Source of the DNA: Pigoraptor vietnamica
Lineage: Eukaryota > Opisthokonta > Filasterea
Length of the DNA stretch: 21,131 nt
Assembly: GCA_943704525.1 (NCBI GenBank)
Contig: CALSCQ010002433.1
Coordinates: 1-21,131, forward strand
Direction of reading: 5' to 3'
Each line of letters begins with the position of its first letter. The stretch's first letter is position 1. A program made the position numbers and the translations under genes. Shown here piece by piece: positions 1 through 20,240 of the stretch. Below the pieces are notes generated by a model. The model worked only from the letters and a program-made list of their open reading frames with translations. It was not told where the DNA came from and did no database searches.

Positions 1-104
1 ATACATAGGAAATACTTCCCAAAAACAGGCTGTATTTTGAACCCAAATACTTCAGAAATACTCCCTGTATTTGCACATATTTGCGTTCCTAAATACAGTA
101 CTTT
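1..104. mobile_element. AT-rich block with AAATAC repeats, possible DNA-transposon end
   Basis: Base composition changes abruptly at about position 104, from GC-rich coding sequence to AT-rich sequence. AAATAC occurs directly at 10, 45, 56 and 91, and inverted (GTATTT) at 32 and 67. Dense short subterminal motifs of this kind are known near the ends of hAT-like and some other cut-and-paste DNA transposons. The minus-strand frame of the neighbouring gene stays open through it, but the codons no longer show the gene's GC bias. No transposase or target-site duplication is visible, so the class is not assigned. It could also be ordinary 3' sequence of the gene. Confidence 0.35.
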
Positions 105-3100
105 TTTGCCAGGGTCGCTCTCGTCCGCGGGGCCCTCGCCGACGCTCTCCTTTCCCTGCGTGTTCACGTCCGTCTCGAGGTCGTGGGTCACGATGCTCCG
201 GAACTCGGAGACCTGGAGCTTCATCTTCTGCTCGGCCACGCACCCCATCTTGACGCCGATGATGACGTGCGTGCCAATCAGCTCCGGGAGGTTGTTGAGG
301 GCGGTGCAATCGCCCCCGCAGTCGCTGTTCGACCCCCCAGACAGGCAGCAGTTGACGTCCGCCGGCACGGACTTCCACACGTAGACGAGATAATCCGACG
401 CCCGCATCCTCGAAAAGTCGAGCACAAAGTTGGCGTCGTAGAGTGACACCGTGACCGAGTTTTCGACGATCACGTCCGTGGACGTCGCGAGCGATTCCGT
501 CTCGAGGGAGAAGGCGGCGTTGGCCTCGAACGCGACTTTCTCGGAAGCAATGACCTCGTCACCGCCGAAGGTCGTCGAGATGCTGATAGAGCTCATCAGC
601 GACGCGCGCTTGTCCTTCTTGGACGTCTTGAGGTCCGACTGGAAGTCCGCCATCGGCAAGAACACGACCATCGTCCCGTCCGGAACATACACGTCGCCCA
701 GGAACGTCGCGTTTTCATACGACAGCTGGATCAGCGGCTTGATGTCCCCGGTCCCGAGCGTGTCCACGGTGCTCTTGCTGTTGGCGCGCACGATGTTGAC
801 GGCGGCCCCGAGAGTCGAGATCCCCGGGACCGTCTTGCCGGCAAAGGGCTCCGACTTGGAAGCCTTGGCCTTGATCATGCGCGCGTCGGCCTCGACCGCC
901 TCTGCCACCACCGTCTTCTCCGTCACCCCGAGGCGTAGCGTCTCGTTCTGCCGCACCACGTCCAACTTCGCCGCAAGGCTTGCTGCCTCCGCCTCCATCT
1001 GCGGCGTCCCCAGCAGCAGCGTCGTCGACGCTTTCACCTCCCGCAACTTTGCATCGGCCGTGTCCGCCAGCACTTGCGCGAGCTCCTTCTCCGCCACCCT
1101 CACGGGAAGCCCCAGCTGCAGCCCCGTCTCCATCGTCACGCGGCTCACGTACGTCTCCAGCCTGCGCGTCAGCATCATGTCTTGCCACGCGTCGCCAACC
1201 GCCAAGTCGGCCGGGGAGCAGGCGATCATGGACGAGGGTCGCGGTCCCGCCCCAGCGCACAGCGCCTGGTCCACGTTCACGAACATGACTGTCGAGCCGT
1301 CGGCCGTGTAGAGGTCGCACGTCACATTTCCCTTCCTCATCAGCGTCGTCACCGACGCCCCCACGACGGGCACACACGGCGCGGCAATCTCGGTGCCGTC
1401 TGCCGCAACGGAAGTCTCGATCGTGCGCGACCACTGCGGCTTGCAGCCCCCGCTGCACGGGCAAGGAATGTTGCTGCACGCATGGTCGTCGGGCCGCTCG
1501 TCGGGGTTGCAGAGGCCCTCGTCGACCGTCGCGTTGATCCGAGTGGCCACGCACACAGTCGACGCCTGCTCGACCGTCAGGGTGCACGACGACTCGGTGC
1601 AGGGGCAGTAGCACTGCTGGCGCCAAGAGTACTCCTCGTCGGGCCCTGGACACGGCATCGAGTCGATCGGCCGGAGGTGGGAGATGGGCGCGCAGTGTGC
1701 CGGGTCCACGGGCAGCCCCGCCCGCGTCACGCACAGCACCATTTGCTGCTCTACCTCACCCGCCTTGCCCGTGCAGGCAGGCGACCAGTCCCCGAGCGCG
1801 CGCCACGCGTACACTGCGGGCGCAGCCCGGCAAGTTAGCTAATCAACCCCCTTCAAGCCAATCCCCTTCCCCGCCCAACCCCCTGCGGCACACAAACAAG
1901 ACTCCCCTGTACACGAGTGACCTGTGTGATTGAGCGAGTGCAAAAACAGAGAGACAGAGGAGAGCATTACCCTCATACGAGATCGTGATCGCGACCTTCG
2001 AGTCCAACGCAGCGTTCCCTTCCCACAGGACACGCGAAAGGAGGACCGCGGACGCGGGGACGACGACGTTCTGGTTAGAACGGTAGCTCGAAGGAGAGAA
2101 GATCAGGCTCGCCTGGGCCCCGTACATCCACTCTTTAACCTCCTCGGTCAGATTCGCCGACGAGATCGTGCAGGCGAATGCGCCGCGGTCCTTGCGCAGA
2201 GTCATCTCGCACACCGGGCTGCCCGCCGAGTCCGCAATCCCCTGCCGTCCGAGGAATGCCGGCGACGAGCTCAGCTGGTGACCCGTCGTCCCCGTGAACA
2301 CGCTGGCGATCAGCGTAAAGTTGCCGATGCTGCCGCCGGCCTGCTCGGTGCCGACTTTGACGGCCGCCACGGGAAGGATGAGCTCAACGCGTTGAATTGC
2401 CAGCCAAGAGGCGCCATCCGGAGGCTCGACGTTGACCTTGGCGACGTCAAACGCCGCGATCATGTGGCACACCTCGGTTGCTGCATCGCAAAAACATGCC
2501 AGCCGCGGCAGTCAGATGGGTCCGGGCCATGGCAACATTGGTCCATGCACAGACGGCAACAAAACTGGCCGGCTGCCACAAAGGACGAGAGATCCCGCAG
2601 ATCTGCGCACGGGACCAGAGCAGAAAGGAAATGCCACAAAAAAGTGGGGGCCAGCGCGGCTGCCCACCTTGGCCCCGGACCTCCACCCGAATTGCAAACG
2701 AGACATTGCCGGGGATGGTGACGGTGATGCTGCTCGTGGCGGCTACCACGAATGACGACCACTCGTACGAGGCGTCGGTGCGCTGGAGTTCGGGCGCGGT
2801 GCTGTTGAACGAGACCTGCCCGAGGGGACCCGAAATGATGACGGCAAACTTGACGTCGCCTGCCGCGCCCGTCACGTTTACGCGGAGGCCGTCGACAAAC
2901 AATGTCGCCTGCGATTGGGTGCCGCGGCCGACCGGGAGCAGGGCCGTCCAATTGGTGCGGGACGGTGACAATGGCACGGAACCGTTCGTCGTGGCCTCGG
3001 CCCACACTGCACGCGCCAGTCTCGAGCCGGTTCAGCACATGACACCAAGACGGCAAGGAGGTGGTGGCGCAGAGCAACAGACCGAGAACTCACCCCCGAT

Positions 3101-6100
3101 GGGATCGCCAATGCGGGACTGGACAAAGTCGACTCCGATCCCCAGGCCGCTCAAGGGCGCGCTCGTCATGCCGATCATTCGATTGGACGAGGGTCCGGTC
3201 TGCTCGCACATCCACATGACGGTCGACGGATCGACGCCGATGGAGACGGCCGTGGGGTACTGCGTGCACCGCGAAGGGTTGAGGCGGCACGCGGCAAGGT
3301 CGACCTGTGCCACCTGCGATGGGCGAGCCACGTACATGGTGGTCGGCACCGGGCTCAAGCCTTGGAGCGTCACTTGGACGATCGCGCCGACTGCCGGCAT
3401 CGTCAGCTGGGCACCCGCGAGATTGGAAGCGCCCTTCGTCGTGAATGCGCGCGCATTCTTTCCGAAAACAGTCACGGCAGTGGAGGCATTCGGGGAGAGC
3501 GGCGGGTCAAAGAAGATCGCAACCGGCTCGGAGCCTGTAATGTGGCAAAGGGCAGGGCGTCAGCTACAAACGGCTCGGCGCATGACACTCGCAACACGTC
3601 CTTACCGGCAGAGGTATCCTTTCGCACGCTCGTGACGTCGCTCGGCTGATCGATGATGCCTGCAAACGGCGCAATGTCGTCGACCTCGCTCGCGGCAAAG
3701 CAGCCCCAGCTGACGAGTTTGTCATCGGCTGAAAAACCGGAACAATGGTATGCTAGTATGAGCAAACGCTGCTGCACCTTGGCGCCGGTACACAGCTCCA
3801 GCTCACCGGGTGCCTGTGGCAGGGGGGTGGCTGGGGGATTCACTGCGGGCGGCGTTGTGACATTTGCGGAGAGCGAGTAGAAGTCGAGGTACTTGTTTGA
3901 TGCGCCCGTCTTAACTGCGCAAGGTTCGTAGCATAGGGAAAATTTTAAGCGGGCCAACCGAAATCAGTCGCATTGTCAAGAAGAGCACACAGCAATTCCC
4001 AAAAGAGAAACACGTGGCATAAGCACCTACCCAGAAGCTGCTGGCTCTGTTTGACGCCCGGAATTGCAGAGAAATTGGCCGACTCCGGAACGACCGAAAA
4101 GCCAAAAAATTGCGATTTGAGCGCGTCCATCGAAAAGTAAGGAAGTGCCGCGGGCTTCGGAGGCGGGTTGAGGACTGACCACTTTGCCCCATCAAATGTC
4201 AGAGTTTCCCCGGTGCATCGAACCTGGAAGGCGCCCGCGGCCGCTTTGTAGGCGATTGCATTCAGCGGATCCCGCTCGAAGCGGGTTGCAATGTCACCCC
4301 ACATACCGAAATTGAACGGCATATTGCACGCAATATCAACCCCCCCATTATAAGCCTGCCATGCCCCCACGCCGGTCGCAATGTTGGTCGCGTCGGGCGA
4401 AAGGAGATGCGGCGGCACCCACGAGTCCAGCGGTCCGCGGACCAACAGGCGTATCCGATATCCCTTTCCCCCCTCCAGACGACGCGGGCACGTTGGCACT
4501 TGGCGAAAATCTTTCCCGTCCGAGTGCACGGCGCCAACAATGCGAGTATCTCCGATCGGTTGACAGACGTAATACGAGCTCTTGTCTGACTCCCAGTCAT
4601 CGGCAACGCAGTAGTCGCCCGTTAAAGAGTACCGGAAGACACTCTCGCCGTCACTCGTCAACGACACGCCGTAGGTTGGGGCGTACGAGGTTCTCATGCA
4701 GCGCGGAATTTGCCTCGGATTTAGTGCCAAAAAATCGGGACTAATGCAACGGCAGTTGTCGACGCCACCGTACGGGTCGCCTCGCAGTTGCGCCCACGTC
4801 GGGGTACCAGAGAAGGTAAAATAGCGACCGTCGATCAAGACCAGTTGATACCTTCGCGGGCAGCACAGTCCCCCGCACAGCTCATTATCTCCGCCAGGGC
4901 ACACAGGTTCGAAACGAGGAAGCTTCGCGAACGGCGCCGTCCAGTCCGAGGCGTTTGCGACCGCACCCGGCGGGTAAATCAGAACACGTGCCCCCGACGG
5001 AACTGCAAGCGAGTATAAGCCCGTCGTCGGAGGATAGAGCGTGAACTCGAGTCGAAATTCGTCGCTGCGATCCTTGCCAATCGCCTGCCAATCAGCATCC
5101 GTCAAAGCCAGCGATGCGACATCACGCCGGCTCTTTGCGGACGGGGCCGGGGCACGAGAATGGTGCGGGGCAACCCAGTGCCGCTCGGGAAGCGATCCCG
5201 AAGCGTTCCCGTAAAAGATGCACTTGGAAGCCAGCCTGTCGTACGAAAAGGCGAGGCACGCATCGTCCTTCGCGCACAAGTCGCCGCACCCGTCGAGACC
5301 GTTCCTTATGCCAGCGACCGTCCGCATGGGCGATGCATCGGCCCCAGACAAGCTGCCCCGCAGCAACTCGGAACAGTGCTCCTGCACGGTCTCGAACGGC
5401 TTGCCCACCAGCGTCGACAGCGGCAGAATGTTTTGCGCCACCGACGACTCCATGGACCCGTTCGCGACGAGGCATGCGCACACCGCCCCCTCCGGCAGGG
5501 TCACAAGCGACGAACTCGACGGCAAAGCTGCGGACCGACGAAATCAAAACAGGCACGGTCAAATTTGACAACGCGCACGCACATACAACCATGCACGGTC
5601 CACCACCGAGCACGGGACTCACCGTCACGAACCACGCACGTCGCCGTAGCCACATCGCAGCTGTCATCGGGCCCACCGCAGTAGCACCGATCGCTGCAGG
5701 TCGGATCCCCGTTGATGCACGGGCACTCGCTCCTCTCCGCGACCGTCCATGCGCCCCCCAGCACGCACGCCTCCGACCTCGTGCCATTGTTGTTGCTCGC
5801 CAGGTCGCTGGCAGGAAAGGAGAGAAGCGGATGGAACCGGCCGTTAACCGCGATAGCAAGCCAAAAGGGCCGCACCGCAAATGAAACAGTCTCACTCACA
5901 TGACGGGGCTCGCGGTCGCGTTGGGAAGATTCCTCGAGATGAGGTGGTTAATGCGGTTGCACGACACGTTGCTGCGGATGCAGGATGCATCGGCGGTCAA
6001 GAAAACTTAGTAACGACCGGTCCGGCCAACCGGCGAATTGCAGCCGGCGCAACATCACATGCGCATGCTGCATACTCACAGCCGCTCGAGAGGTATCGCG

Positions 6101-7704
6101 ACGCATGGAAAGAGCCCCTCGCCCAAATCCGTCAGCTGGTTGTCGGACAAGTCTCTGCGGCGCGAATTGCTCAGTTCTCAGAACCCGCGCATTGGCCCAG
6201 CGCGCATGCATACGGAGCACAGTCCGGTCACGCGCAGCTCACATCTGTCTCAGGGCCACGTTGGCGGCAAAGAGCCCGAGGGGGAGGGCGGTCAGCTGGT
6301 TTGACGCCAGAGATCTGGAACAAATGCCAGTCAGCAATCACGAGGCGAAAAAGAGCGAGGCCGAACTGGGCTGCGCTCACTTACACTCGCACCAGCGACT
6401 TGAGCTCGCAAAACGCGTCGCTTGGCATAGTCACGAGCACGTTCTGCGAAAGGTCACTGCGAAACGACAACGGACGTTAGCTACAAGGCACGGCAACCAG
6501 TCGCACAGAACTCGAGACACCCACATGGAAGTAAGCGCAGTGTTGTGCTTGAAGAGGCCCGGCGGCAGTCGCGCTAGCCCGTTCCCTGCAAGCGATCTGC
6601 GCAACACGGGCAAAAGGGGAGCGCGTGAGCACAACACGGGGCAAGGCAACACACGACAGACGTGGCGCCCACGCACATGCGGCTCAGGTTGCCCAGGTTT
6701 GCAAACGAGTCGCCGGCAATGCCCCCGAGACCGTTGAAGGCGAGATCCCTGCAACGACGACCACAGAGCCGATCGGTGAGAGTTTTCAATTTCAACAGCC
6801 GGGAAACAGTGCCCAGAAGCCAGTGCCGTCGCCCCGGGCCGCTCAAGCCAACTCACAGTTCCACGACGGCAGGAATGGCCTGTAGCTGCTTCATCAGGGC
6901 TTCCGAATCGAGCCCGCGTACGTTCCGCAGTGTGCTGTCAGTGGCAGTGCCATAACGAGCTTAGCCACATCGGTCGGTTCGCAAAACAAGAACGACACTG
7001 TTCACACTGTGAGGTGAACGGCGCAGTTCACACATGCACACACAACACCACTCACAGCTTCTTGAGCGAGCCGCACACGGTCTCCAGAAGACCCTTGGGC
7101 ACCGGTCCGTTCGGATTGGCACAGCCGGCCACGTTCTCAACAACACTGCGTCGGCAATTGAACGACTGTTGTGTTAACAGGACCAGCGGTACCCTGGAAC
7201 CGCGGATCCCTTGCCCGAGCGCACATCCGAACCCACATTTCCGAAATGGTCGCAGCAGCGTGGTTGCCAGTGGCCGTCGAGTTTTGAAACAAAGCAAATG
7301 CCTCCGGAATGACAGTGACGTTGCAGCGCCCCGAAAATGACCTGGGGAAAAAAAAACACTCCAAGTTAGCACCAACAGTCGCCAGTCCTCGCACAATCTT
7401 AACGCAGCAATACTCACAACACGCCGCTCTTCAACACTGCGCACACGTTCGTCGGTGACGTCTTTGCCGTGCTGGTTGCGACCCAACAGAGGCACGAGTC
7501 GCTCTGGGCATCGCAACACCGTGGCGGCGTGCCCCCCGTGTCGGCGGCCACGGCCCGCAGAGCTGAACGTCGATTCCGCATGCCCGCAGGCGGGATCGAA
7601 CGTGCCGCCTCCCCTGTCCACTGGAACGCGAGAAGCAAGAGAAACAACACCGCCAATGACCACTGAAAGCCTTGGCGTCCCCGCCCCACCGCACTCCGCA
7701 GCAT
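1..7704 (-). CDS. Large secreted LRR-PAN-TSP1 protein with a MACPF-like C-terminal region (3' end outside the window)
   Basis: I infer 17 exons (plus coordinates): 7418-7704, 7233-7341, 7056-7165, 6857-6934, 6677-6748, 6525-6596, 6385-6456, 6243-6314, 6080-6154, 5900-5971, 5623-5807, 4031-5527, 3606-3914, 3094-3534, 2668-3006, 1971-2480, 1-1813. Most donors are GTGAGT, GTAAGT or GTGGGT types and the reading frame closes at every junction, giving >2,000 residues. The ATG at 7704 starts a signal peptide with hydrophobic core LAVLFLLLLAF. Modules in order: Cys-containing cap; LRRs at about residues 130-340; a 10-Cys module (340-400); PAN/Apple (about 463-515, GCGDLCAKDDACLAFSYD); beta-rich Cys-poor segments (900-1430); TSP1-like repeats (about 1434-1555, GDWSPAC); and a region with LIGTHVIIGVKMG near residue 1946 that resembles the MACPF signature. 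The exon 2/3 junction is the least certain. The function is unknown; a surface recognition or effector role is inferred from the modules. Completeness cannot be judged because the frame runs off the window. Confidence 0.82.
5900..6934 (-). repeat. Array of single-LRR exons inside the large minus-strand gene
   Basis: Seven consecutive exons (6857-6934, 6677-6748, 6525-6596, 6385-6456, 6243-6314, 6080-6154, 5900-5971) each encode one leucine-rich repeat. They are 78, 72, 72, 72, 72, 75 and 72 nt long. Every exon starts and ends in phase 2, splitting the last codon of the repeat. Examples of repeat cores are LAFNGLGGIAGDSFANLGNL, LAGNGLARLPPGLFKHNTAL and LASNQLTALPLGLFAANVAL, which fit the LxxLxLxxNxL plan. 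Introns are 68-108 nt with clear GT-AG borders. The preceding exon (7056-7165) holds the N-terminal flank of the array. Confidence 0.88.
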
Positions 7705-8534
7705 GTTTGCGCTTGCTGCGATTGCGGAGAGAATGACGCGCTTTCGCCTCCCAACTCGGCCCTTTCACCTCCACAATTGCCCCAAATTGCCGCCCATTTA
7801 TGCCCAACAAACAAACAAAGGCCCCTTGCCAACCGCTGGCGCGCGCAGTCTGTGTATCGAGCACGGATCGTGCCCACTTCCACACTGGTCACAGTGTTGT
7901 GTGTGGGACGCGCATCAGACACGGATTCCTCGAATAATAAATTTGACTTTTGCCCAGTTTTGTATGGACATTTACGTGTTGAAATAAAAATGCCGGCCAA
8001 ACACATCGGTTGTCCGTTCTCAGCGTACGTACGGGGTGTGGGACAAGAGCGACTTCGCCAAAAGTACCAAGTCCACGGCAACACATTGCCGGCTTACTTT
8101 GCCGAGTCATTTTTGTCGACGACGACCACTAGCAGTGACACTGAACCACAGACTGACCGCCATTCACCGGCACTCAGAAACCATTAACAACCAAACGTGC
8201 GTTGAGTTGCCGACAGTAAACCACATGCCACTTGCGCAATCCTCCGGCCAGGCACACTGACAGAAGTTGCGGCTGTCGACGCAAAGATCTAAGTCAATAG
8301 CGCCATTCACCCCGGATACATCGCCGCCGAAATAGAATGTGGGTCTGTTTTCATTTTAGCACCCTGCACTTTCCCGCCAGTACGGCGAATAAGATTGCAG
8401 AGAGTGACTCGCACGGCTTTGTTCGTTCTGAGTTCGCTCTTGCTGCCGGTGCATGACAACCCGCGGCAACGCACTCTCGGATCGGACTGCTTGCATCAGT
8501 GACGAACAGCGCTCGGCGAATCCCGCGCTCCGGC
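7705..8534. promoter_or_regulatory. Divergent intergenic region between two secreted-protein genes
   Basis: This 830-bp stretch separates the minus-strand start at 7704 from the plus-strand start at 8535, so it should hold both promoters. It is less GC-rich than the genes, with its most AT-rich patch around 7930-7995. I recognise no convincing TATA box or other named element. Most open frames here lack codon bias. The exception is an exon-like minus-strand frame at 8164-8341, listed separately. Confidence 0.5.
8164..8341 (-). other. Exon-like orphan reading frame in the divergent intergenic region
   Basis: On the minus strand a frame of about 58 codons, without its own ATG, lies just after a possible acceptor (AAAACAG, ending at 8342) and ends in TGA at 8164-8166. 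Its translation is rich in Cys, Asp, Trp and Gly, for example LDLCVDSRNFCQCAWPEDCA. That resembles the Cys-rich extracellular style of the neighbouring genes. It may be an upstream exon of the large minus gene, the remains of a duplicated exon, or chance. No nearby donor and partner exon stand out. Confidence 0.25.
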
Positions 8535-11342
8535 ATGGCCCGTACGATTTGTTTCGGCCTCGTGGCCGCGGCGCTCGGCGCTGTCTTCCTCGTCTCCGGC
8601 CTCGTCGATCCCGGTGGCGGTGGAGGCGGCGCGTCGCACCTCGCGTTCGCCGCCCAGGTGACTGGCAGGACTTTCAGCACGAACCGTGCCCTTGGGTGCG
8701 CCAACATGGTGGGCGATCTCTTCGACTGGACGGTCCTCTACGAGTACGACATTGCGGCCGAGTTCTGCTTCATGACTTCCGCCGACGCCGTCAGCGGACT
8801 CGACGCCCACTGCATCCCCTACAACAAAACCATGCCCTTCCACGCCTTCTCCGCTCCCGGCAGCCCGATCGTCCGCACGCTCGCCCAGCCGTTCGCCCGC
8901 GACGCCCTCGGCAACCTCACCGGCGATCTCAAGGACGACGTCGAGTACCTCTCCTTCGTCACCGACTTTGAGCACTTCAAGGAGGCCTTCGAGAACGCCC
9001 TCTTCGCCAGCGATTTCGAGCACCTCCGCAAGCTCCAGCGCCTCCGCGGCCTCCTCGTCTTCTCCGAGACCTTGCAGGAGGGCTTCCTCATCCTCCACTC
9101 CAACGTCTTCTTCCCTCCCACCGCGACCGACGCCGGCGGAAAGTCGCGCCTCGTCCCGCCGTTCTACGGTCCCGACGTCGCCGCCTCCCGCGAGCGCGGC
9201 TGGAAGTGGGACTTCGCCTTCCCCGCCGAGCAGTACTACGCCTGTGTCTCGATCTCGCCCTCCACGTCCAAGGACGTCTTCGACGCCGTGGCCGCCATGA
9301 ATCCCTTCGTCACCTTCGATCGCACTCTCCCCGGTTCCTCGCTCGGCCGCTTCGCCACGCCCGTGCAGCCCTTCAGTGGCTCCGTCTTTGCTCAGGCTGC
9401 CTGGCCCGACTACCTCAAGTGCGCCGCCACCGCCGCCACCGATCCCGACAAGGCCTGCCTCCGCCGCTACGACGTCGGCGCCGGCGGCTCCAACGCCACG
9501 ATCCTCGTCCGCATGCTCGCCGCCGATCCCAACGTCTGCGTCTCCAGCCATGCCAATGGCTCCTCCCTCTCCCTCGGCTACTCGTGGGGCATGCGCCCTT
9601 GGTCCAGCCCCGCCTTCATGACCGCCATCGTCGGCCCCCACGCCGCCCCCGGGTTCGTCTGCTTCGGCTCCCTCTTCTTCGCCCCCACCAAGGGCGACGA
9701 GAAAATGACCGCCGCCGCCCTCTGCCTCCGCAACGAGTTCATGTGGGCTTCCACCCTCAAGACCGGCCGCAACTTCGTCGAAGCCGTCTGCAAGCCCGAC
9801 GACCCCCCCAACTCCAACCCCAACGCCCCGCCGCCCGGCCTGATCCAGGATGCCCCGCGCCGCCGCAAGGTCGTTTACAACCGCCGCTGGATGTTGGACA
9901 ACAACGCCGAGGTCGTCAAGCCGCCTGTTGCGATGCCTGCCGCCGTCCCCGCCGCTGCGAGGCGTGCGGGGATCGACGCGCCTGACCCCAAGGCCGACGC
10001 GCGCGATGGCGTCACTGTCGAGGACGAGCCAGACGACGCCGGCGACGTTTCCACGGACGATTCCATTGACGACAGGACAGGCGACACAGCAGACGACGCG
10101 ACGGATGACGCGGACGGTGGCGAGAGCGCCGCACTTCCCGATCCTCGTGACGCGTGCACCCTCGAGGAGTTCTGCGACGACTACATCCTCGAGTACGCGT
10201 TCGAGGAGGCGCTTGGGGAGGACCCGAACACGAACGACACGCCACAGAAGCCGACGTCCTCGACCGTCCTGTTCGACAGCCTCATGGCGCAGCTCGACCA
10301 GACGCTCGTCCGCCTCGAGAACAGCGCGCACTTCAACTACGACCTCGAGGCCGACAAGATCAAGGCCGAGAAGGACGCCCTCGAGTACGAGCGCGAGTAC
10401 ACCCCCGACGGCGGCTGCCTCTTCCGCCAGTACTCCCACGTCGGCCGCCTCGACATGCCCGAGTGGACCGGCAAGCAGCCCCGCCGCCTCGACCCCACCG
10501 ACAAGATGGAATACGCAGAGATCCAGGTCCGCTGGCCGACGACGATCGAGGCGCATGCCTCCGTCGAAATCTTCGAGCAGACCGACCCCAATGATGACAC
10601 ATCCCGCCGTCCCGTCGCCTTCTTCGTCGTCGATGGTTACCGCAACGGTATCAATGCTTCCTTCTGGATTGGCCGCGACGAAACCGAGTCCAAGGGCCTC
10701 AACGACAAGCACGCTGTGACGTTCCTCTACGAGACGAAGCGCGTCCCCCGGTCCGTCCTCGCCGTCCGCAACCTCAACGCCACGTGCTACTACTCCGCGA
10801 TCGTCACGCTCAAGACCAAGTCGCGCGCCAAGATCTGGCGTCAGATGATGAAGTCGTACAGCCCAACCACCGACCGCCAGCTCACCCGCGACTTCTGCCT
10901 CCCCGGTCCCTGCACCTACCGCCTCGAGCAAATGAAGGTCAACGGCGGCGAGGCCACCGGCGCCGTCCTCGAGCACCACGAGTGGGACGACGCCGTCATC
11001 CTCCGCGCTGGCAGCCGCCAGTTGTGCGTCGGCGAGTTTACCTGCGAGATTACCCTTGAGACCGTCGAGTCGGAGTGCTCGGATCAGTACGACAAGATCG
11101 GCACTCTTCTTTTCGTGTACAACGAGACCACGGCGAATACGGCCGCTGACCTTGAGCTGATTGAGTTCCGGCTGCCAGTGGGTTACCTGCGACAGATGGA
11201 ACCGTGGTTGCTTTGGCGCGAATGTTGCTCATCATTGCCGCTTTTATTCTTCTTGCAGACCACGCAGAGAGCCCAAATCCCTTCGCGACCCCGCTGTCGG
11301 ATCACCTCTTGCATTCCCGGCGCGACACGGGTGGGTTTTTGA
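8535..11342 (+). CDS. Large secreted orphan protein with acidic linker
   Basis: The ATG at 8535 follows a good context (CGGCATGG) and starts a signal peptide (ARTICFGLVAAALGAVFLVS). The unspliced frame gives about 935 residues. I recognise no domain family. Residues ~25-430 form a Cys-containing globular region with several N-glycosylation sequons. Residues ~470-535 are an Asp/Thr-rich low-complexity linker. Residues ~545-880 form a second Cys-containing region beginning CTLEEFCDDYI. Codons are extremely rich in C/G third positions, supporting coding. The last ~55 codons (from 11178) lose this bias and overlap the next gene's start. The true end may be an exon junction near 11177-11181, and the frame could even join the downstream nuclease. 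It is probably extracellular; the function is unknown. Confidence 0.8.
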   Translation: MARTICFGLVAAALGAVFLVSGLVDPGGGGGGASHLAFAAQVTGRTFSTNRALGCANMVGDLFDWTVLYEYDIAAEFCFMTSADAVSGLDAHCIPYNKTMPFHAFSAPGSPIVRTLAQPFARDALGNLTGDLKDDVEYLSFVTDFEHFKEAFENALFASDFEHLRKLQRLRGLLVFSETLQEGFLILHSNVFFPPTATDAGGKSRLVPPFYGPDVAASRERGWKWDFAFPAEQYYACVSISPSTSKDVFDAVAAMNPFVTFDRTLPGSSLGRFATPVQPFSGSVFAQAAWPDYLKCAATAATDPDKACLRRYDVGAGGSNATILVRMLAADPNVCVSSHANGSSLSLGYSWGMRPWSSPAFMTAIVGPHAAPGFVCFGSLFFAPTKGDEKMTAAALCLRNEFMWASTLKTGRNFVEAVCKPDDPPNSNPNAPPPGLIQDAPRRRKVVYNRRWMLDNNAEVVKPPVAMPAAVPAAARRAGIDAPDPKADARDGVTVEDEPDDAGDVSTDDSIDDRTGDTADDATDDADGGESAALPDPRDACTLEEFCDDYILEYAFEEALGEDPNTNDTPQKPTSSTVLFDSLMAQLDQTLVRLENSAHFNYDLEADKIKAEKDALEYEREYTPDGGCLFRQYSHVGRLDMPEWTGKQPRRLDPTDKMEYAEIQVRWPTTIEAHASVEIFEQTDPNDDTSRRPVAFFVVDGYRNGINASFWIGRDETESKGLNDKHAVTFLYETKRVPRSVLAVRNLNATCYYSAIVTLKTKSRAKIWRQMMKSYSPTTDRQLTRDFCLPGPCTYRLEQMKVNGGEATGAVLEHHEWDDAVILRAGSRQLCVGEFTCEITLETVESECSDQYDKIGTLLFVYNETTANTAADLELIEFRLPVGYLRQMEPWLLWRECCSSLPLLFFLQTTQRAQIPSRPRCRITSCIPGATRVGF

Positions 11343-14035
11343 ATTTTGAATTGTATTTGTGTTCACTATGCGTGCTTCTCTCACTCGTTCAAACCTATCA
11401 CAGGCACATTGTATCTTGGGGACGAGGACGTCCGAGAGGCAGTTGATGTATTTGAGAAGGTGCTTTGCTCTCGCCACTTCTACAAAGACCTGTCCAGCTT
11501 CCCGTAGAAATCGACACGTTTGGCGCCCTGAATGGACCGCGGTTTGTTCCGATTTGCCACCGTTTCGATCCTGGTCGAGACTACACCTTCATCGCCGGTT
11601 CCTCCAAAGCCCGCCGTCACGTTACGAAGAAATTTGGGACACCTTTCGCTGCTCCATTGCCCCCTTCTCTTTGTGAGGCCATCCTTGCTGGTGCGTCGTC
11701 TCCCGAAGGTGTTAATGAGCAGGCGTTGAAAGATCTGCTTCACGGCGATGAGCGCGGCCTGTACTTTACTGTGTACGATACACGGAACCACATTCCCGTC
11801 TACTCGGCGTATTCTATTCGGCTCAAGGGCGGCCCTACGGATCTTCTACGGTACGCTCGCCCCGCTCCGGCCTCCAAGTCAGGGTTTATGGTCAACTCAG
11901 GTGCGACACAGTTGTTGCTCACCTTGTGCTTATTTGAAAGTCGGCTAATTTCAGGTTGCACATTCCGCGTCCTGCAGTTTTGAGTGGAATTGCGTATTTG
12001 CGAGCTAAGAAGGGCGGCACTGCTGGTGATCTTTTCAAATGTGAGGATGCGGGGCCGGAGAAGGTCAATGGCCATGGGATCTATGGGCGAGGGCACCTGA
12101 CGGAAATGACGACGAAGCTGCAGTCCTTGTTGAACGAAGAGGGCGTGGCGTCGTTGATGATGACGGACGACGAATATCGTGCGGTGACGGGCAATAGTGA
12201 TAGATACGAGCGCGGTCACTTGAATCCGAGCCTGCTGAATACCTTGTACCGCAAGGATGAGACGGACGAAGTTCTCTTCCGCAACAGCCTTGCGACTTTC
12301 TCCTTCCTGAACATTGTTCCTCAGATTGGGCGGTGCAATGGGGGGCAGTGGGGCGGGACTGAAGGGAAGCTGGTGGACGTGGTGTTGAAGGTTGCTGCGG
12401 ATTTCCGAGACTTGAAGGCCGAGCCACCTGTTGTGTACTTTGCGACTGGGACTCGACTTGGTGCATGCCCTAATGGTGGCCGCTGTTCAATCCCCAACCT
12501 CCTCTGGACGGAAATTTGTTCGCCCGATATCTTTGGCGCTTTTCGCGTGGAGGTGCACAATGATGGTTCTTCGTGTAAGGTGGCTGTGTTTGGCAATCTC
12601 AATGGCGATGTTCCTCGCATTCAGGCTCTTTCTGCTTCAGTTGTGCCCAGGCTTGGCAGGAGCTTCCACGGGAACGCAGGGTAGTTCTGTATCATACAGG
12701 GAGGCAATCAGGGGCATTCTGGACGCACCTGCCGATAAGACGCGTCAGAAAGCAGTGAAGAAGCTGGACTTGCCGCTCAGTGTGCCGCAATCTCGGGATC
12801 GTTGCAGTGGAGTCGATCGCGAACAATGTGTGCTCCTTGGCTGCCTGTACGTTGAGGGGATGACTGCGAAGGCGAGTACGAAGCGGGGTGCGACTTGTAA
12901 GTCCTTCTTTGGGAGCGGGGCCTCTGTCAAATCAGCCGTAAAGGTCTTTGAGAACGGTATCATGAAAATGGATAGTAACGTGTATACGGAGACATTCCGC
13001 CGCTACTTGGATAATGCTCTCGAGAGGGTCTCACAGGCGATAGAAATTGTGAACGGCAAAAGCCTTGCCCCTGCAAAGGAGGCTGCCCGCTTGTCCATTC
13101 GCCACCGGATCTTACAGTTCATTTTCCGGGCGGGAATTGCATTTGCTTGCCTGTTTGGTCCTGATAATGGCGTCGGCGATTCACCTTTGTGTGGGCGCCG
13201 GCGATGGGGCAATAAGCAGGCGACCACGTGCCACCCTGTCGAACTGGTCAGTTCTGATGCTGCGCCGCCGGACCCTACTTCGTGCTTAGTGGTGCTCAGC
13301 AGTCGCGGCAATTACCTGCAGCAGATCATGGACATCTTCATTCGGAATTTCATTCACGAGGTCGTTCACGGCATGCAACAGTACTGTGCTGGAAAAAACG
13401 TCTGCGCACTCCACCTTGCTCTGTTTCTGAGCGCGCCAATTCACAGAGAATCTGACGATTTTACTGATCTGAGCAAGTTTGCTGCGTTCGATATGGCTGC
13501 GAGCTTGTGGAAAACGTCGGGTACTGTGGGTCGGGGCCGTTACAGGTTGACAGACCCCGCTGCAAAGGTCCTGAATGCTAAGTCGGCTCTCGAGGTTGCG
13601 CAAAGGGATCTTATCACAAAACAGAGTGAGCTTCGGAGGATGACTGAACCGAGACATGCAGCGGCAAAACCCTTGAGCAATTCTCCGGCTGCAAAGAAGA
13701 GGCGTCAGCGACGCCTGTCTAATGCTGAGGAAGCTGTAGAAACTGCGAAACGTACGGTTCACTTGGCAAAAAAGGAACTCGAGAAAGCTGTAGCAGCTAT
13801 GACAATGCTGAGTGTGGCGGCGGGATCAGACACAGAGGAACTGCTGGCTGATGCAATCCGCGGTCCTCTTTGTCGATGTATGGTTGAAATTGATGATGCA
13901 ATTATTGCTGAACTGAACCCGCCTGCCGTTCTGACGGACGTCGACATGGTAAACGCCAACGAGGCGACAGCCGGCGCGGAAGTGCCAGAGGCCACGGGCG
14001 ACGAAACTGCTCCTATGGACACGCAGCCGCTATAA
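11222..14035 (+). CDS. Secreted ENDOD1-like DNA/RNA non-specific endonuclease with long C-terminal extension
   Basis: Inferred exons are 11222-11330, 11404-11459, 11498-11900, 11978-12574 and 12651-14035 (849 aa). Alternative sites that also keep frame are donors 11442, 11448, 11884 and 12610 and acceptors before 11955 and 12641. ATG 11222 gives a signal peptide (MLLIIAAFILLA). Family features are the YDTRNHIPVYSAY motif, ERGHLNP at about 12208-12228 (the catalytic His motif, with Glu where DRGH is usual), and the metal-binding Asn segment NIVPQ followed by NGGQW and a Glu. The family cleaves DNA and RNA with a beta-beta-alpha metal active site. About 460 residues follow the nuclease; they include Cys pairs, a predicted coiled coil (about 13560-13800) and a basic cluster KKRRQRR, and I do not recognise them. 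Codon bias is much weaker than in the gene before it. The start is uncertain (see findings). Confidence 0.8.
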
Positions 14036-14201: not shown

Positions 14202-16394
14202 TCATTCCTTCACAAACTTGCCCGCGGCAATTGCGTCGCGCAGCCACCGGTCAAGCGGGGGATTAAACCCCGATAGCTTCGTCACATCAGTCTCCTTAAA
14301 CGGAATTCTAAAATCGCAAACGGCTTGCAATGCATCGCGTCGTCCGCGACGGAGGAAGGTACGGAGGGAAATTGGGCGCTTTACGAGGTCGATCCCGAGC
14401 GCGCGCTCAATGACGAATGTGTCGTAATTACACTGCACATACTCCCACGCGCCCGACCGCAACTCAGGGCGCCACTCGAGCATCGAGCGCCAAAAGTTCA
14501 TGTCTAACACTTCCTCCATCCACCGCAAAACGAGCTCCGGCGGGGTCTTGCGCGACACGGCTGGATAAAGTTCGTCAAACCACCGCACGAGCTCAAATCG
14601 CCCGCTGCGCACAACCGCGACGAAGGCATCCTCCAGGCTCTTCGGCGTCGTCGCTGCGGCAGGGTTGCGCTCGAGCACCCAGCGGATGAGTCGCCACCGC
14701 CGCGACGCGACTGCGGCCGCCAACGACGCGCGTTGTCCCGGCAAGCGGCGGTCGATCATGCGCGCCAGCCCATAGCGACCCACCCGCACTGCTGTCTCGA
14801 GCGCATCGCTCAGGTTGAAAGGGCGCTTCGCCGGATCGAACCACTTCGGGTCTCGCGAAAACGCCGTATCGTACGTCGGAGTCCTGCGCGCGTTCACGTC
14901 GAGCATGTACTCAACCATCGCAAAATGCCCCGCGGCAACGGCGGCGCGTGCGTTCTGGTTGACATACAGGTCGTTGATCGAGTAGATGCGGACGACGTCA
15001 AGCTTCTCGCAGAGGTACCGCAACATGTCGACGTCCCCGCACGCTATCACGGGCGCAAGCCACTTTTCCTCGACGAGATCGTAAATGGTCTTGTGCCCGT
15101 ACACCTGATGCGTGCGACAAAGCGACAAAACGAAATCGACGAGTTCGCGCGTCAGCACGAACGGCGGCAAACTTCGGAGAGAGCCCTTGGATGGAGCCGT
15201 ATATCCCCACGCCCCCACGTCGAGAAATACGAGGAAGCGATCCTTTCCGACCAACTTTCGCTCGTTCAGCCACTTCAGCGCACCCATGTTCCCGATGCGC
15301 ATCATCACCCATGCGACGTACCGCATTCCCTCATCATCGAGGTGCGGGGCGACCATCGCCGCAGCGTCGTAATCGTCGTGTAAGAAACAATCGAGGAGCG
15401 TTTTGTCCGTGAGTTTCGCTCCGTCGCCGTTTACGCTCAGCTCGAGCTGCTCCCGAGTGCCAAACGCAACCGAACACTTGGCGCCCAACTGACGGAGGCG
15501 CGCCAGTTCCGCCACGTGTCGTCCCTGCGCCGCCGCACTCGCCAGCTCATTCATCTGCTCCGCGGTCAAGTTCTCGATGGCGACGGGCACGCGCGAAAGT
15601 ACAACGTCCAAATTGAAGCCCTTGAAGGCGTATGCCGTCGACAAGAGTCGAAACGTCACTTCAACGTCGTCAATGCCCTGAGAGCGACATGCATCAAGCA
15701 CGAGTTCGAGGATTCGTGGGCCAACAGCGACGTCATAGAACAAGATCGCGCCAGGTATGATTTCAAGCATGAACACCGGAGACACAACGGTTGTTCTGAA
15801 AAGCCTCTCGACAATCCCAACGTCGGCTATGCGCATCGCCGATTCGAGCGCGTCGCGCGCCGGAATGACGCTCCCAAGACAGAAAGGAGGCGCTTCGTCG
15901 AGAAGAAATAGCAATTGCTCACGCGAGAGTAACTCAAATGGCCTTCGCGACGCGTCGGCTGGCAGCGCTAGCAAACAATACCACTCATAGTTGTTTGCAA
16001 AAACCTCCAGTCGGTTGCGAACGATGAACGCAAACACGTCCCAGTGGCCGCGTGTAAGTGCGAACTTAATCGACTCGTTCGAGCAGTGCGTCACGCGACC
16101 GCGCTTGACCTCGTCCTCGTGGAGCAGCTGAATCACCTCGAGGTGTCCGCTCTTCGCCGCAAGGTCAATGTCCCAATAACCGTACGGGCGGTACCGCGAC
16201 AAATCGCCGACGACGCTATCGTTGACGACCGTGTCGCGAATGCGATCGAAGAAATCGCAGAGGCGCTTACACGTCGCGCGGAGGTGTCCAACGTCCGTCA
16301 GCGTGAAGCGCGCGAGCTTGACGAGGTGAACGAGCACCTCCTCCGACAGGCCTAGAAGAAGCGAAACGTCGCTCGCGCCCTCCGAGACGTCCAT
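14202..16394 (-). CDS. F-box protein with ankyrin-like repeats, intronless
   Basis: This is a single uninterrupted frame of 730 codons from ATG 16394 to TGA 14202. Residues ~10-50 (LSEEVLVHLVKLARFTLTDV and LRATCKRLCDFF) fit an F-box, the Skp1-binding motif of SCF ubiquitin ligases. Downstream there are degenerate ankyrin-type helices with the pattern A..[AS]GH..[VM]...L, for example DLAAKSGHLEVIQLL near residue 78, AVAAGHFAMVEYML in the second half, and RSGRFELVRWF towards the C-terminus. No signal peptide or membrane segment is seen, so it is probably cytosolic. By family knowledge such proteins act as substrate adaptors; the substrate cannot be guessed. F-box/ankyrin proteins of this style are common in amoebae, some algae and giant DNA viruses. 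The lack of introns contrasts with the spliced genes beside it. Confidence 0.85.
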   Translation of the reverse strand: MDVSEGASDVSLLLGLSEEVLVHLVKLARFTLTDVGHLRATCKRLCDFFDRIRDTVVNDSVVGDLSRYRPYGYWDIDLAAKSGHLEVIQLLHEDEVKRGRVTHCSNESIKFALTRGHWDVFAFIVRNRLEVFANNYEWYCLLALPADASRRPFELLSREQLLFLLDEAPPFCLGSVIPARDALESAMRIADVGIVERLFRTTVVSPVFMLEIIPGAILFYDVAVGPRILELVLDACRSQGIDDVEVTFRLLSTAYAFKGFNLDVVLSRVPVAIENLTAEQMNELASAAAQGRHVAELARLRQLGAKCSVAFGTREQLELSVNGDGAKLTDKTLLDCFLHDDYDAAAMVAPHLDDEGMRYVAWVMMRIGNMGALKWLNERKLVGKDRFLVFLDVGAWGYTAPSKGSLRSLPPFVLTRELVDFVLSLCRTHQVYGHKTIYDLVEEKWLAPVIACGDVDMLRYLCEKLDVVRIYSINDLYVNQNARAAVAAGHFAMVEYMLDVNARRTPTYDTAFSRDPKWFDPAKRPFNLSDALETAVRVGRYGLARMIDRRLPGQRASLAAAVASRRWRLIRWVLERNPAAATTPKSLEDAFVAVVRSGRFELVRWFDELYPAVSRKTPPELVLRWMEEVLDMNFWRSMLEWRPELRSGAWEYVQCNYDTFVIERALGIDLVKRPISLRTFLRRGRRDALQAVCDFRIPFKETDVTKLSGFNPPLDRWLRDAIAAGKFVKE

Positions 16395-17088
16395 TTCGCC
16401 GACAAAACGCTCGACACCGTGAGAAAAAGGGTAGGGTATCGCCGTTCAATCGACTGAAGTGTGCCTGCAGCAAACCAACACACAGTGAGCACTGTGCCGA
16501 CATGCGCCAATGCACGCACAGCAACATCAAGACAACCCACCAATCGCACTGCGCAGTGAAAGCAGAAAAGAGAATTGAACCATTGTTGCTGTTTTGACCC
16601 TACGAAGGTACGTAATGGGTCCTCCGTCGGTCTGACCGCGTGGCCGCGCTACCGGGGAATTAAGAGAGAGTTATCCCGAGTCGTTTGTTACGATCGTTAC
16701 GTTTGTTCGTGCCCAGAAAACGTAACATTGTTCTTTCACTTCTCGAGTCACGTGGCCTGTTGTAACACCTTTTTTTCCCCCACTCCGCCACGCCATTTTT
16801 TTTTTACCTATTTTCCAACGACCACGCCGTCCGAAAATGCATACCCAAGCATGTGCCGGTGCCGGAAGTCACAAAGTTCGAACGTCTCTGTGCCCCATTT
16901 TCCAACGACCACGCCGCCGTCCCCCCGTTTTACGGCGGGCCGCCCGAAAATGCACACCGGCTATGCATGTGCAAGTCACAAAGTTCGAACCGGACCACAC
17001 TATGGACGATCATACCTGAAACTGCGAAACCGCCGAGCTCAGCCGGCGCCGGGAAATGACGCAATACACATAACCCAAGTTGAGTGAC
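16395..17088. promoter_or_regulatory. Divergent intergenic region with duplicated block
   Basis: This 694-bp region lies between the F-box gene start (16394, minus) and the small spliced gene start (17089, plus). It is the likely promoter region of both. It contains homopyrimidine/T-rich stretches around 16770-16805 and a tandem duplication at 16811-16990. I recognise no gene in it; the open frames present read through repeats without codon bias. Confidence 0.5.
16811..16990. repeat. Imperfect tandem duplication (~90-110 bp), two copies
   Basis: Copy 1 (16811-16883) and copy 2 (16898-16990) share three blocks in the same order. TTTTCCAACGACCACGCCG is at 16811 and 16898, CCGAAAATGCA at 16831 and 16944, and AAGTCACAAAGTTCGAAC at 16866 and 16973. 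Copy 2 is longer because of an extra C/G-rich segment at about 16917-16942 that can pair with itself (GCCGT ... ACGGC). Confidence 0.8.
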
Positions 17089-18027: not shown

Positions 18028-18187
18028 TTTCCGCACTTCGGCGTCCTTTCCACACTTCGGCGTACTTTCCGCACTTCAGCATTCTTTCCGCACTTCGCCG
18101 TACTTTCCGCACGTCGGCGTTCTTTCCGCACTTCGGCGTTCGTTTTGCACTTCGGCGTTCGTTTTGCACTTCGGGGCGTTCTTTCCA
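18028..18187. repeat. 19-bp minisatellite, about 8 units
   Basis: The consensus unit is TTTCCGCACTTCGGCGTTC, repeated head to tail about eight times with one or a few substitutions per copy. Two units begin GTTTTGCACTTC and one carries a 2-bp expansion (GGGGCG). The unit length is not a multiple of three, so apparent reading frames through it on both strands merely reflect a lack of stops. Confidence 0.85.
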
Positions 18188-18565: not shown

Positions 18566-19138
18566 CGAACTCGGCAAAAATGAAGACGAAGAGGGCATGT
18601 TACTCTGCCCGCCGGCCGCCGGACGAGCAGCCCGGGCAGTCGCGTGACTGACCCGGCGGACTACTGGCCGTGGTCACGGTCACCGTGACTGTGCGCCGGC
18701 GCGTTGAGGTTGTGAGCGCTGCTGTGCCGCACACATGCACTTCGCCAATGCGCGTATATTATGGGTGGCGACGTCCCGCTGTATCCTTTTGCTCCCTACC
18801 GTCAGGGTGTTTTCGTGTACTAAAGGTGCTTGTCTTGCAGTCGTGCACACTGGCAATCATGAGAGCAGTCACACATTTTTATGTTGTGCACTGACATCGG
18901 GAGTATCAACACAATCGGCGCACACAAGTGCACCTCATGAGCCGTACTGCAAAGCACATGACACAGGCGCAAACAGTCTGGCGCCCACAACGCGCAGTCA
19001 CGAGCATACGTCATGCACGAGCGCACATCACAACGCACACGAGCGGCCGCATCCAACAGGTCAGGAGCGCACACCTCCGGACACTGAGCACGTCGCACAC
19101 GAGCAACCAGCAAAAAAGAGCGACGAGCAAACTGCACG
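18566..19138. other. Repeat-flanked spacer without convincing gene
   Basis: This stretch lies between the telomere-type tract and the 17-bp minisatellite. It contains a 17-nt palindrome at 18673-18689 and becomes increasingly CA-rich towards the right. The open frames continue into the minisatellite and show no independent coding signal. Confidence 0.5.
18673..18689. repeat. Perfect 17-nt palindrome
   Basis: The sequence GTCACGGTCACCGTGAC has two 8-base arms that are exact reverse complements around a single central base. It sits about 110 bp to the right of the telomere-type tract. It could be a protein-binding site or a chance inverted repeat. Confidence 0.6.
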
Positions 19139-20240
19139 AGCGCACATCGAACACGAGCGCACATCGCACAAGAGTGCACACCGCGCAATGCACACGAGCG
19201 ACCAGCGAAGACTGAGCAAGAGCGCACAGCACAGGAGCGCACATCGCACAAGAGCGCACATCGCACAAGAGCGCACATCGCACAGGAGCGCACATCGCAC
19301 ACGAGCGCACATCGCACACCAGCGCACATCGCACAAGAGCGCACATCGCACAAGAGCGCACAGCACAGGAGCGCACATCGCACAGGAGCGCACATCGCAC
19401 AGGAGCGCACATCACACACGAGCGCACATCGCACAGGAGCGCACATCGCACAGGAGCGCACATCACACACGAGCGCACATCGCACAAGAGCGCACATCGC
19501 ACAGGAGAGCACATCGCACAGGAGCGCACATCGCACAGAAGCACGCATCGCACAGGAGCGCACATCACACACGAGCGCACATCACACACGAGCGCACATC
19601 GCACAGGAGCGCACAGCACAGGAGCGCACATCGCACAAGAGCGTACATCGCACACGAGCGCACAGCACAGTAGCGCACATCGCACAAGAGCGCCCGTCGC
19701 ACAAGAGCGCACATCGCGCAGGAGCGCACATCGCACAGGAGCGCACAGCACAGGAGCGCACATCGCACAAGAGCGCACATCGCACAGGAGCACACGGCAC
19801 AGGAGCGCACATCGCACAGGAGCGCACATCACACACGAGCGCACATCGCACAGGAGCGCACATCACACAAGAGCGCACATCGCACAAGAGCGCACATCGC
19901 ACAGGAGCACACGGCACAGAAGCACGCATCGCACAGGAGCGCACATCGCACAGGAGCGCACATCGCAGAGGAGCACACGGCACAAGAGCGCACATCGCAC
20001 AGGAGCGCACATCGCACAGGAGCACACGGCACAGAAGCACGCATCGCACAGGAGCGCACATCACACACGAGCGCACATCGCACAGGAGCGCACTGCACAG
20101 TAGCGCACATCGCACAAGAGCGCACATCGCACAGGAGCGCACATCACACACGAGCGCACATCGCACAGGAGCGCACAGCACAGGAGCGCACATCGCACAA
20201 GAGCGTACATCGCACACGAGCGCACATCGTCGGCACACGA
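19139..20240. repeat. 17-bp minisatellite, about 60 units
   Basis: The consensus is GCGCACATCGCACAGGA, with common variants ending CAAGA or CACGA and shortened 15-bp units (GCGCACAGCACAGGA and GCACACGGCACAGGA). The array is ragged from 19139 to about 19225 and regular after that. Because 17 is not divisible by three and the unit has no stop in any phase, all six frames of the consensus are open. This generates long spurious frames of a 17-residue repeat, His/Arg-rich on the plus strand and Cys-rich on the minus strand. Confidence 0.93.

Follow-up and report, generated by a model that had tools for sequence, protein, structure and literature searches.

We report a gene on the minus strand of an entire contig of Pigoraptor vietnamica (CALSCQ010002433.1, here C1001; 21,131 bases, referred to as the window), part of a 32.5 Mb assembly in 1395 contigs. 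The gene appears to encode a single giant secretory-pathway protein in which a leucine-rich repeat (LRR) array, a PAN-like module and a TSP1-like part precede a divergent MACPF domain. Profile comparison with two genes of the same genome establishes, at the sequence level, the MACPF homology of the last exon. Judged from its predicted make-up, the protein resembles a sensor joined to a weapon in a single chain, and its family probably consists of pore-formers that are anchored in the membrane, carry a recognition array of their own and have a perforin-2-like layout. A pore-forming role in the phagosome or at the cell surface, directed against prey or intruding microbes, seems the most likely function, and we hold it with about even confidence.

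Gene structure and constraint

The splice model was built from codon usage and GT-AG scoring, and was then tested against a paralogous gene on contig C2 (locus L009). The gene starts with an ATG at 7704 and extends to the left end of the contig, where it is cut off, and the spliced frame comprises 18 exons with 1968 residues free of stops as far as base 106. A first-pass annotation of the same DNA had proposed this frame with 17 exons; the frame from the ATG to the contig end was borne out, whereas the exon count was one too low. The features of the gene, all on the minus strand, are as follows.

7418..7704, minus: exon 1, with the start codon, a Cys-rich N-terminus and a signal-like run at about residues 13-27; C2 match with the same donor
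7237..7341, minus: exon 2, from the splice model and the C2 paralogue
7056..7145, minus: exon 3, from the splice model; start from the acceptor common to the window and the C2 paralogue
5900..6934, minus: exons 4-10, LRR array (LRR_8 E 1.4e-25), each exon found in the C2 paralogue at 65-91% identity; singly 6934-6857, 6748-6677, 6596-6525, 6456-6385, 6314-6243, 6154-6080 and 5971-5900
5623..5807, minus: exon 11, end of the LRR region and a short Cys-rich stretch; 78% identity to the C2 paralogue
4031..5527, minus: exon 12, a PAN/Apple-like module near 5297-5193, and a long stretch that is conserved and gave no significant match in databases; PAN_1 E 6.1e-4, 61% identity to C2
1971..3914, minus: exons 13-17, no Pfam family over cut-off, match in the C2 paralogue; singly 3914-3807, 3728-3606, 3534-3094, 3006-2668 and 2480-1971
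1101..1811, minus: exon 18, first segment, in which about three TSP1-like modules of degenerate sequence were recognised by eye, with alignment to the C343 and C2 genes
816..1100, minus: exon 18, middle, charged and probably helical linker, read from the sequence; colinear tblastn match to C343 (locus L007)
106..815, minus: exon 18, end, approximately one half (the first) of a MACPF domain, which breaks off with the contig; GTH motif located at 275-267, profile comparisons with C343 and C363
1..105, minus: open frame to the contig end, which may be intron, repeat or assembly end; its sole match in the assembly is itself

The C2 paralogue provided colinear matches for all 18 exons (tblastn E 0.0 to 1.2e-8, with the database limited to this locus and both composition correction and the low-complexity filter switched off), and the splice sites of the two genes agreed for nearly all of them. 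At the junction of exons 13 and 14 (the end of the one, the start of the other) the alignment was not clean, and exon 18 was covered for its first 68 residues alone, because the C2 contig ends about 126 bases further on. Since the acceptor is common to both genes, the start of exon 3 was placed at 7145 in the window and at the same acceptor in C2. A Cys-rich stretch at about 2600-2490 was considered as a protein module and rejected; the splice sites of the paralogue place the start of exon 17 at 2480, and the stretch upstream of it is therefore intronic. The intron after exon 2 has an apparent GC donor in C2 (L009, about 4262) where the window has GT.

Across 1404 aligned codons (exons 3 and 18 in part), the window and C2 differed by dN 0.211 and dS 0.866, giving a dN/dS of about 0.24. 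This low dN relative to dS indicates a constrained protein and not a chance frame, and the gene structure and the constraint hold from exon 1 to early exon 18. The paralogue also links the signal peptide, the LRR, the PAN-like exon and the TSP1-like exon in one gene, in agreement with the single protein that had been proposed at first; the locus is still best read as a single gene that has LRR, PAN-like, TSP1-like and MACPF parts.

MACPF homology of the last exon

The Pfam MACPF profile (cut-off 21.5 bits) detected two clear loci in the assembly, on contigs C363 (51.2 bits) and C343 (48.5 bits), and the window was not among them. A profile made from these two relatives scored 26.2 bits on the 236 residues of the window, and none of 2000 shuffles scored as high (best 12.6 bits). 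When the same profile was run over 393 six-frame pieces of the window of at least 30 residues, the correct piece came first with 5.5e-7, and the next had 1.5. The alignment of the window with C343 and C363 revealed two adjacent Cys, a GG pair, two further Cys and GT(H/F) common to all three; in the window the GTH motif is located at 275-267, and the four conserved Cys, of which two are adjacent, lie just ahead of it. Based on the profile score, the frame ranking, the shared Cys and GT(H/F), we conclude that the window holds a divergent MACPF domain. The window's own Pfam score (E 0.35) was rejected as a sole basis for this assignment, being convincing only together with the relatives from the same genome.

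The MACPF signature in PROSITE is aromatic-G-T-H-(F/Y)-x6-G-G. Compared with it, IGTHVIIGVKMGC keeps G-T-H and one G and is without the aromatic residue, the F/Y and the second G. Both relatives, which exceed the Pfam cut-off, are likewise without the signature GG, and one of them has GTF. A Gly-rich stretch after GTH is kept in both relatives.

Searched against the PDB, the C343 and C363 profile matched perforin-like protein 1 (PLP1; 5oup) at 7.2e-16 over 312 positions, nearly the entire domain, and the match was still 1.5e-14 when the window was added to the profile. Weaker matches were obtained for the MAC/Perforin protein 9xda (0.0024), MPEG1 (0.089), perforin-1 (0.2) and C8 alpha (0.24).

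The MACPF call of the first-pass annotation was thus sustained through homology to C343 and C363, but for approximately the first half of the domain and not by the window's own Pfam match. That annotation had also taken an amphipathic Ser/Thr/Val stretch before GTH as a MACPF sign. The beta-moment of this stretch was equalled or exceeded in 624 of 2000 shuffles, and amphipathicity was dropped as evidence for MACPF.

Modules upstream of the MACPF domain

Near the N-terminus of the window protein there is a hydrophobic signal-like run, FQWSLAVLFLLLLAF, with a Kyte-Doolittle (KD) value of 2.25 over 15 residues, and a similar run is found in the C2 paralogue, in keeping with the signal peptide that had been noticed earlier. 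The LRR array, also noticed earlier, is confirmed by tandem LRR units with an LRR_8 match of 89.3 bits (cut-off 27), and of the seven LRR exons, five are phase-2 units 72 bases long. The LRR homology of the gene, judged by this profile, is secure.

The PAN/Apple module is fairly supported by its profile matches. The PAN_1 score in exon 12 was 20.0 bits, just short of the 21.4-bit cut-off. A search of the exon against the PDB gave no significant match; the best hit, micronemal protein 4 (E 0.47), covered largely the PAN residues. PAN_1 was also found downstream of MACPF in both relatives, over cut-off in C343 (21.9 bits) and below it in C363 (14.4 bits). The early identification of PAN/Apple Cys in this gene therefore has support from the PAN_1 match and from C343, but falls short of the cut-off in the window itself.

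Exons 13-17 gave no Pfam match over cut-off, the closest being DUF5556 in exon 17 (E 0.035, sub-cut-off). Among six profiles tried on the C343 stretch, that of exon 15 matched the C343 gene with E 1.3e-5, and those of exons 12, 14, 16 and 17 and of the TSP1-like part (with the short C2 piece) did not match it.

The first part of exon 18 is likely TSP1-like, on the grounds of its alignment, in which Trp, Trp-Ser and Cys columns are common to the window, C2 and C343. The WSxxC repeats claimed for the gene at first were not recovered, as the last exon contains a single WSxxC and Pfam found no TSP1 there, whether the exon was searched whole or trimmed. In C343, TSP1_ADAMTS matched a module trimmed to 64 residues with E 0.0015 and 19.2 bits (cut-off 23.8), and a search of the 422-residue piece containing that module gave no TSP1 at E 0.5. 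A three-sequence profile of the TSP1-like part matched no PDB chain at E 10. The TSP1-like identity itself is favored by the columns shared with C2 and C343, but the Pfam match is sub-cut-off in C343 and absent in the window.

Relatives with a complete C-terminus

The C343 gene has an exon-15-type module, a TSP1-like part, a linker and a MACPF domain in common with the window. The TSP1-like part and linker of the two genes aligned by tblastn with 6.7e-6 over 597 columns (in a search of four loci), and the alignment crosses a C343 intron. In scans of the C343 stretch both MACPF (45.0 bits) and PAN_1 were over cut-off. The PAN-like module that follows MACPF in C363 is homologous to that of C343 (39% identity, E 2e-20), and a module after the PAN-like one is also common to both, with 45% identity. 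This membrane-proximal module had no match in the PDB at E 10, and in C363 it had a sub-cut-off Pfam match to Big_5 (E 0.044). Both genes end in a transmembrane helix (KD 3.40 in C343 and 3.33 in C363) and, after it, a short basic tail that contains NPLY in C343 (L007, about 7200-7508) and NPLH in C363. NPLY fits the pattern of an NPxY sorting or adaptor motif.

By analogy with these relatives, we infer that the MACPF domain of the window copy would be followed by another PAN-like module and a membrane-proximal one, and that the chain would end with a transmembrane helix and a short tail in the cytosol. C363 was ruled out as the missing end of the window's gene, because both contain the GTH region and differ there. 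The identities to the window, 75% for C2 in the TSP1-like part and 30% for C363 in MACPF, speak against C2 and C363 being two ends of one gene.

Proposed function and alternative readings

In the proposed mechanism, one gene would encode a giant secretory-pathway protein with an LRR array, a PAN-like module, novel modules, a TSP1-like part and a helical linker, and then MACPF. The protein would be sited on the surface or in the phagosome membranes of a feeding amoeba-like cell, where its recognition modules may bind the surfaces of microbes that are ingested or touch the cell. The MACPF part, perhaps once freed from its anchor, could then assemble into pores in the target, akin to the action of perforin-2 (MPEG1) in animal phagocytes. 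The anchor of the window copy, ligand binding, pore formation, the phagosomal site and the amoeba-like cell are points that we infer. The amoeba-like, perhaps amoebozoan, cell is a guess prompted by the cofilin of this genome, whose best matches among PDB sequences are actophorin entries (E 7.1e-46 and 3.8e-43; 1ahq is the Acanthamoeba protein); one conserved 18S pattern had no match. The pore-former is favored because of the perforin-2-like layout, namely a secretory recognition ectodomain, MACPF and the type I anchor of the relatives.

Several results weigh against this reading. The window's own Pfam MACPF match had 11.4 bits over profile positions 76-102 (the GTH region), hhalign gave E 8.4e-5 with a low probability of 60% over a short span of 53 columns, and the identity of the MACPF stretch is only 21% to C343 and 30% to C363. 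The segment GTHVIIGVKMGC is without an aromatic residue before GTH and without the GG pair, the stretch ahead of it is no more amphipathic than many shuffles, and the single-sequence AlphaFold model of the MACPF stretch was uninformative (mean pLDDT 33). To these are added the sub-cut-off PAN_1 match of exon 12 and the lack of a Pfam TSP1 match in the last exon. The window contains an incomplete MACPF domain, roughly the second half of which falls past the contig end; of the two transmembrane-hairpin clusters that go with the bent MACPF sheet, the second would be expected at that end or farther on. The dN/dS value does not include the MACPF part, since C2 stops before it. Finally, in a search for a third C-terminal half, two C-terminal query parts matched C343 and C363 alone among the best candidates scored, and the window's own continuation is therefore either missing from the assembly or diverged.

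The Pfam score, the hhalign probability and the AlphaFold model would fit a protein that has no MACPF at all, in which GTH occurs by chance within an ectodomain rich in Ser/Thr. This appears very improbable, and judged by the profile test it is largely refuted: the relatives' profile scored far above every shuffle and ranked the piece at the top of the 393 frames, the Cys and GT(H/F) are shared, and the module order is common to the window and C343. A truncated or decaying copy, whose frame stops near the contig end and which yields no working MACPF, with C343 and C363 as the working genes, would account for the drop in G+C from 62% at 106-815 to 35% at 1-101, directly after the last recognisable MACPF residues, as well as for the C-terminal parts matching only C343 and C363 among the best candidates scored. 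However, the dN/dS of about 0.24 against C2 (MACPF part not covered) and 1968 stop-free codons argue against decay, and the contig simply ends, like C2. Because the contig ends in an assembly of 1395 contigs, the absence of the C-terminal half is unsurprising, and we consider truncation unlikely.

The main rival is a surface adhesion or recognition receptor in which MACPF is structural and non-lytic, with the LRR, PAN and TSP1 modules binding prey, matrix or other cells. Non-lytic MACPF is thought to occur in some animal astrotactin/BRINP-type proteins. The large modular ectodomain would suit such a receptor, and so would the transmembrane anchor and short tail of the relatives, the NPLY of the C343 tail with its resemblance to a sorting or adaptor motif, and the strong divergence of the window MACPF, with its missing GG pair and no amphipathic excess before GTH. 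Yet the Gly-rich stretch after GTH is retained in the relatives, and their MACPF can be aligned almost from end to end with the lytic protein PLP1. We regard the receptor as a less likely alternative, and the pore-former as the preferred reading.

Other features of the window

Divergently oriented to the MACPF gene is an open reading frame (ORF) at 8532-11342 (plus strand), uninterrupted over 936 residues, with a signal-like start and an acidic stretch; it had no Pfam match. The ORF at 11938-12684 (plus) contains a DNA/RNA non-specific endonuclease domain (Endonuclease_NS E 2.9e-9). An uninterrupted ORF of 747 residues at 14202-16445 (minus) carries ankyrin repeats (Ank_4 E 1.3e-6) and, by eye, an F-box-like start. 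In these features the ORF resembles giant-virus ankyrin proteins. A viral origin of this ORF was considered and rejected, as the peptide pattern was found in seven viral-contig stretches, none of which codes for a relative. Tandem arrays were found at 19138-20229 (a 17-base unit in 65.7 copies, or a 66-base unit in 15.1), where several frames are open throughout, and at 18028-18186 (a 19-base unit in 8.3 copies). A scan of the window detected no tRNA, and no Rfam family reached the gathering score.

Comparison with known MACPF systems

Perforin-type killing has been described chiefly in animal immunity and for proteins of apicomplexans and bacteria. MACPF, LRR, PAN and TSP1 are each already known, and what would be new is their combination in a single chain of a non-animal. 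A non-animal chain with all four was not named in the literature titles and abstract openings surveyed; annotated relatives in eukaryotic protein databases may exist. We propose, at somewhat less than even confidence, a lineage-specific family of membrane-anchored sensor-plus-pore proteins of a phagotrophic protist, in which LRR, PAN and TSP1 were fused with perforin independently of perforin-2 and complement. If this is true, it would represent an independent route to targeted pore formation, with recognition modules, and in the relatives an anchor, wired straight to MACPF. The killing of ingested bacteria with perforins by amoeba-like predators would also become testable, comparable to perforin-2 in macrophages.

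Among solved structures, PLP1 is by sequence the closest to the MACPF of the relatives (7.2e-16). It is likewise non-animal, and we take 5oup to be the Toxoplasma protein, an apicomplexan perforin-like protein. PLP1 is not known to have an LRR/PAN/TSP1 ectodomain or a transmembrane anchor, and the membrane-proximal module of the relatives, unmatched in the PDB, is a further difference.

Complement C6-C9 are secreted proteins with TSP1 beside MACPF in one chain, and the TSP1-like part upstream of MACPF resembles this layout; the profile match to C8 alpha is weak. In contrast, we know of no LRR or PAN in C6-C9, and Pfam found no LDL-receptor-A or EGF modules in the last exon of the window (E 1) or in the C343 stretches (E 0.5). 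Astrotactin and BRINP are multi-domain animal neural MACPF proteins with other accessory domains and, as far as we know, without lysis; the likeness lies in the multi-domain layout.

MPEG1 is a type I membrane protein with MACPF and a short tail. The type I anchor and short tail were here seen in C343 and C363 only, the window copy being cut before them. We know of no LRR, PAN or TSP1 modules in MPEG1, and its P2 domain was not recognised in the relatives, whose membrane-proximal module remained unmatched at E 10 with MPEG1 entries in the library. The window gene has 18 exons, whereas the MPEG1 gene is described as intronless in a passage of PMC7371996. The model outlined in the same source has perforin-2 reaching bacteria-containing vacuoles and forming pores there (PMC7371996), and it is this system that the layout of the protist family most resembles.

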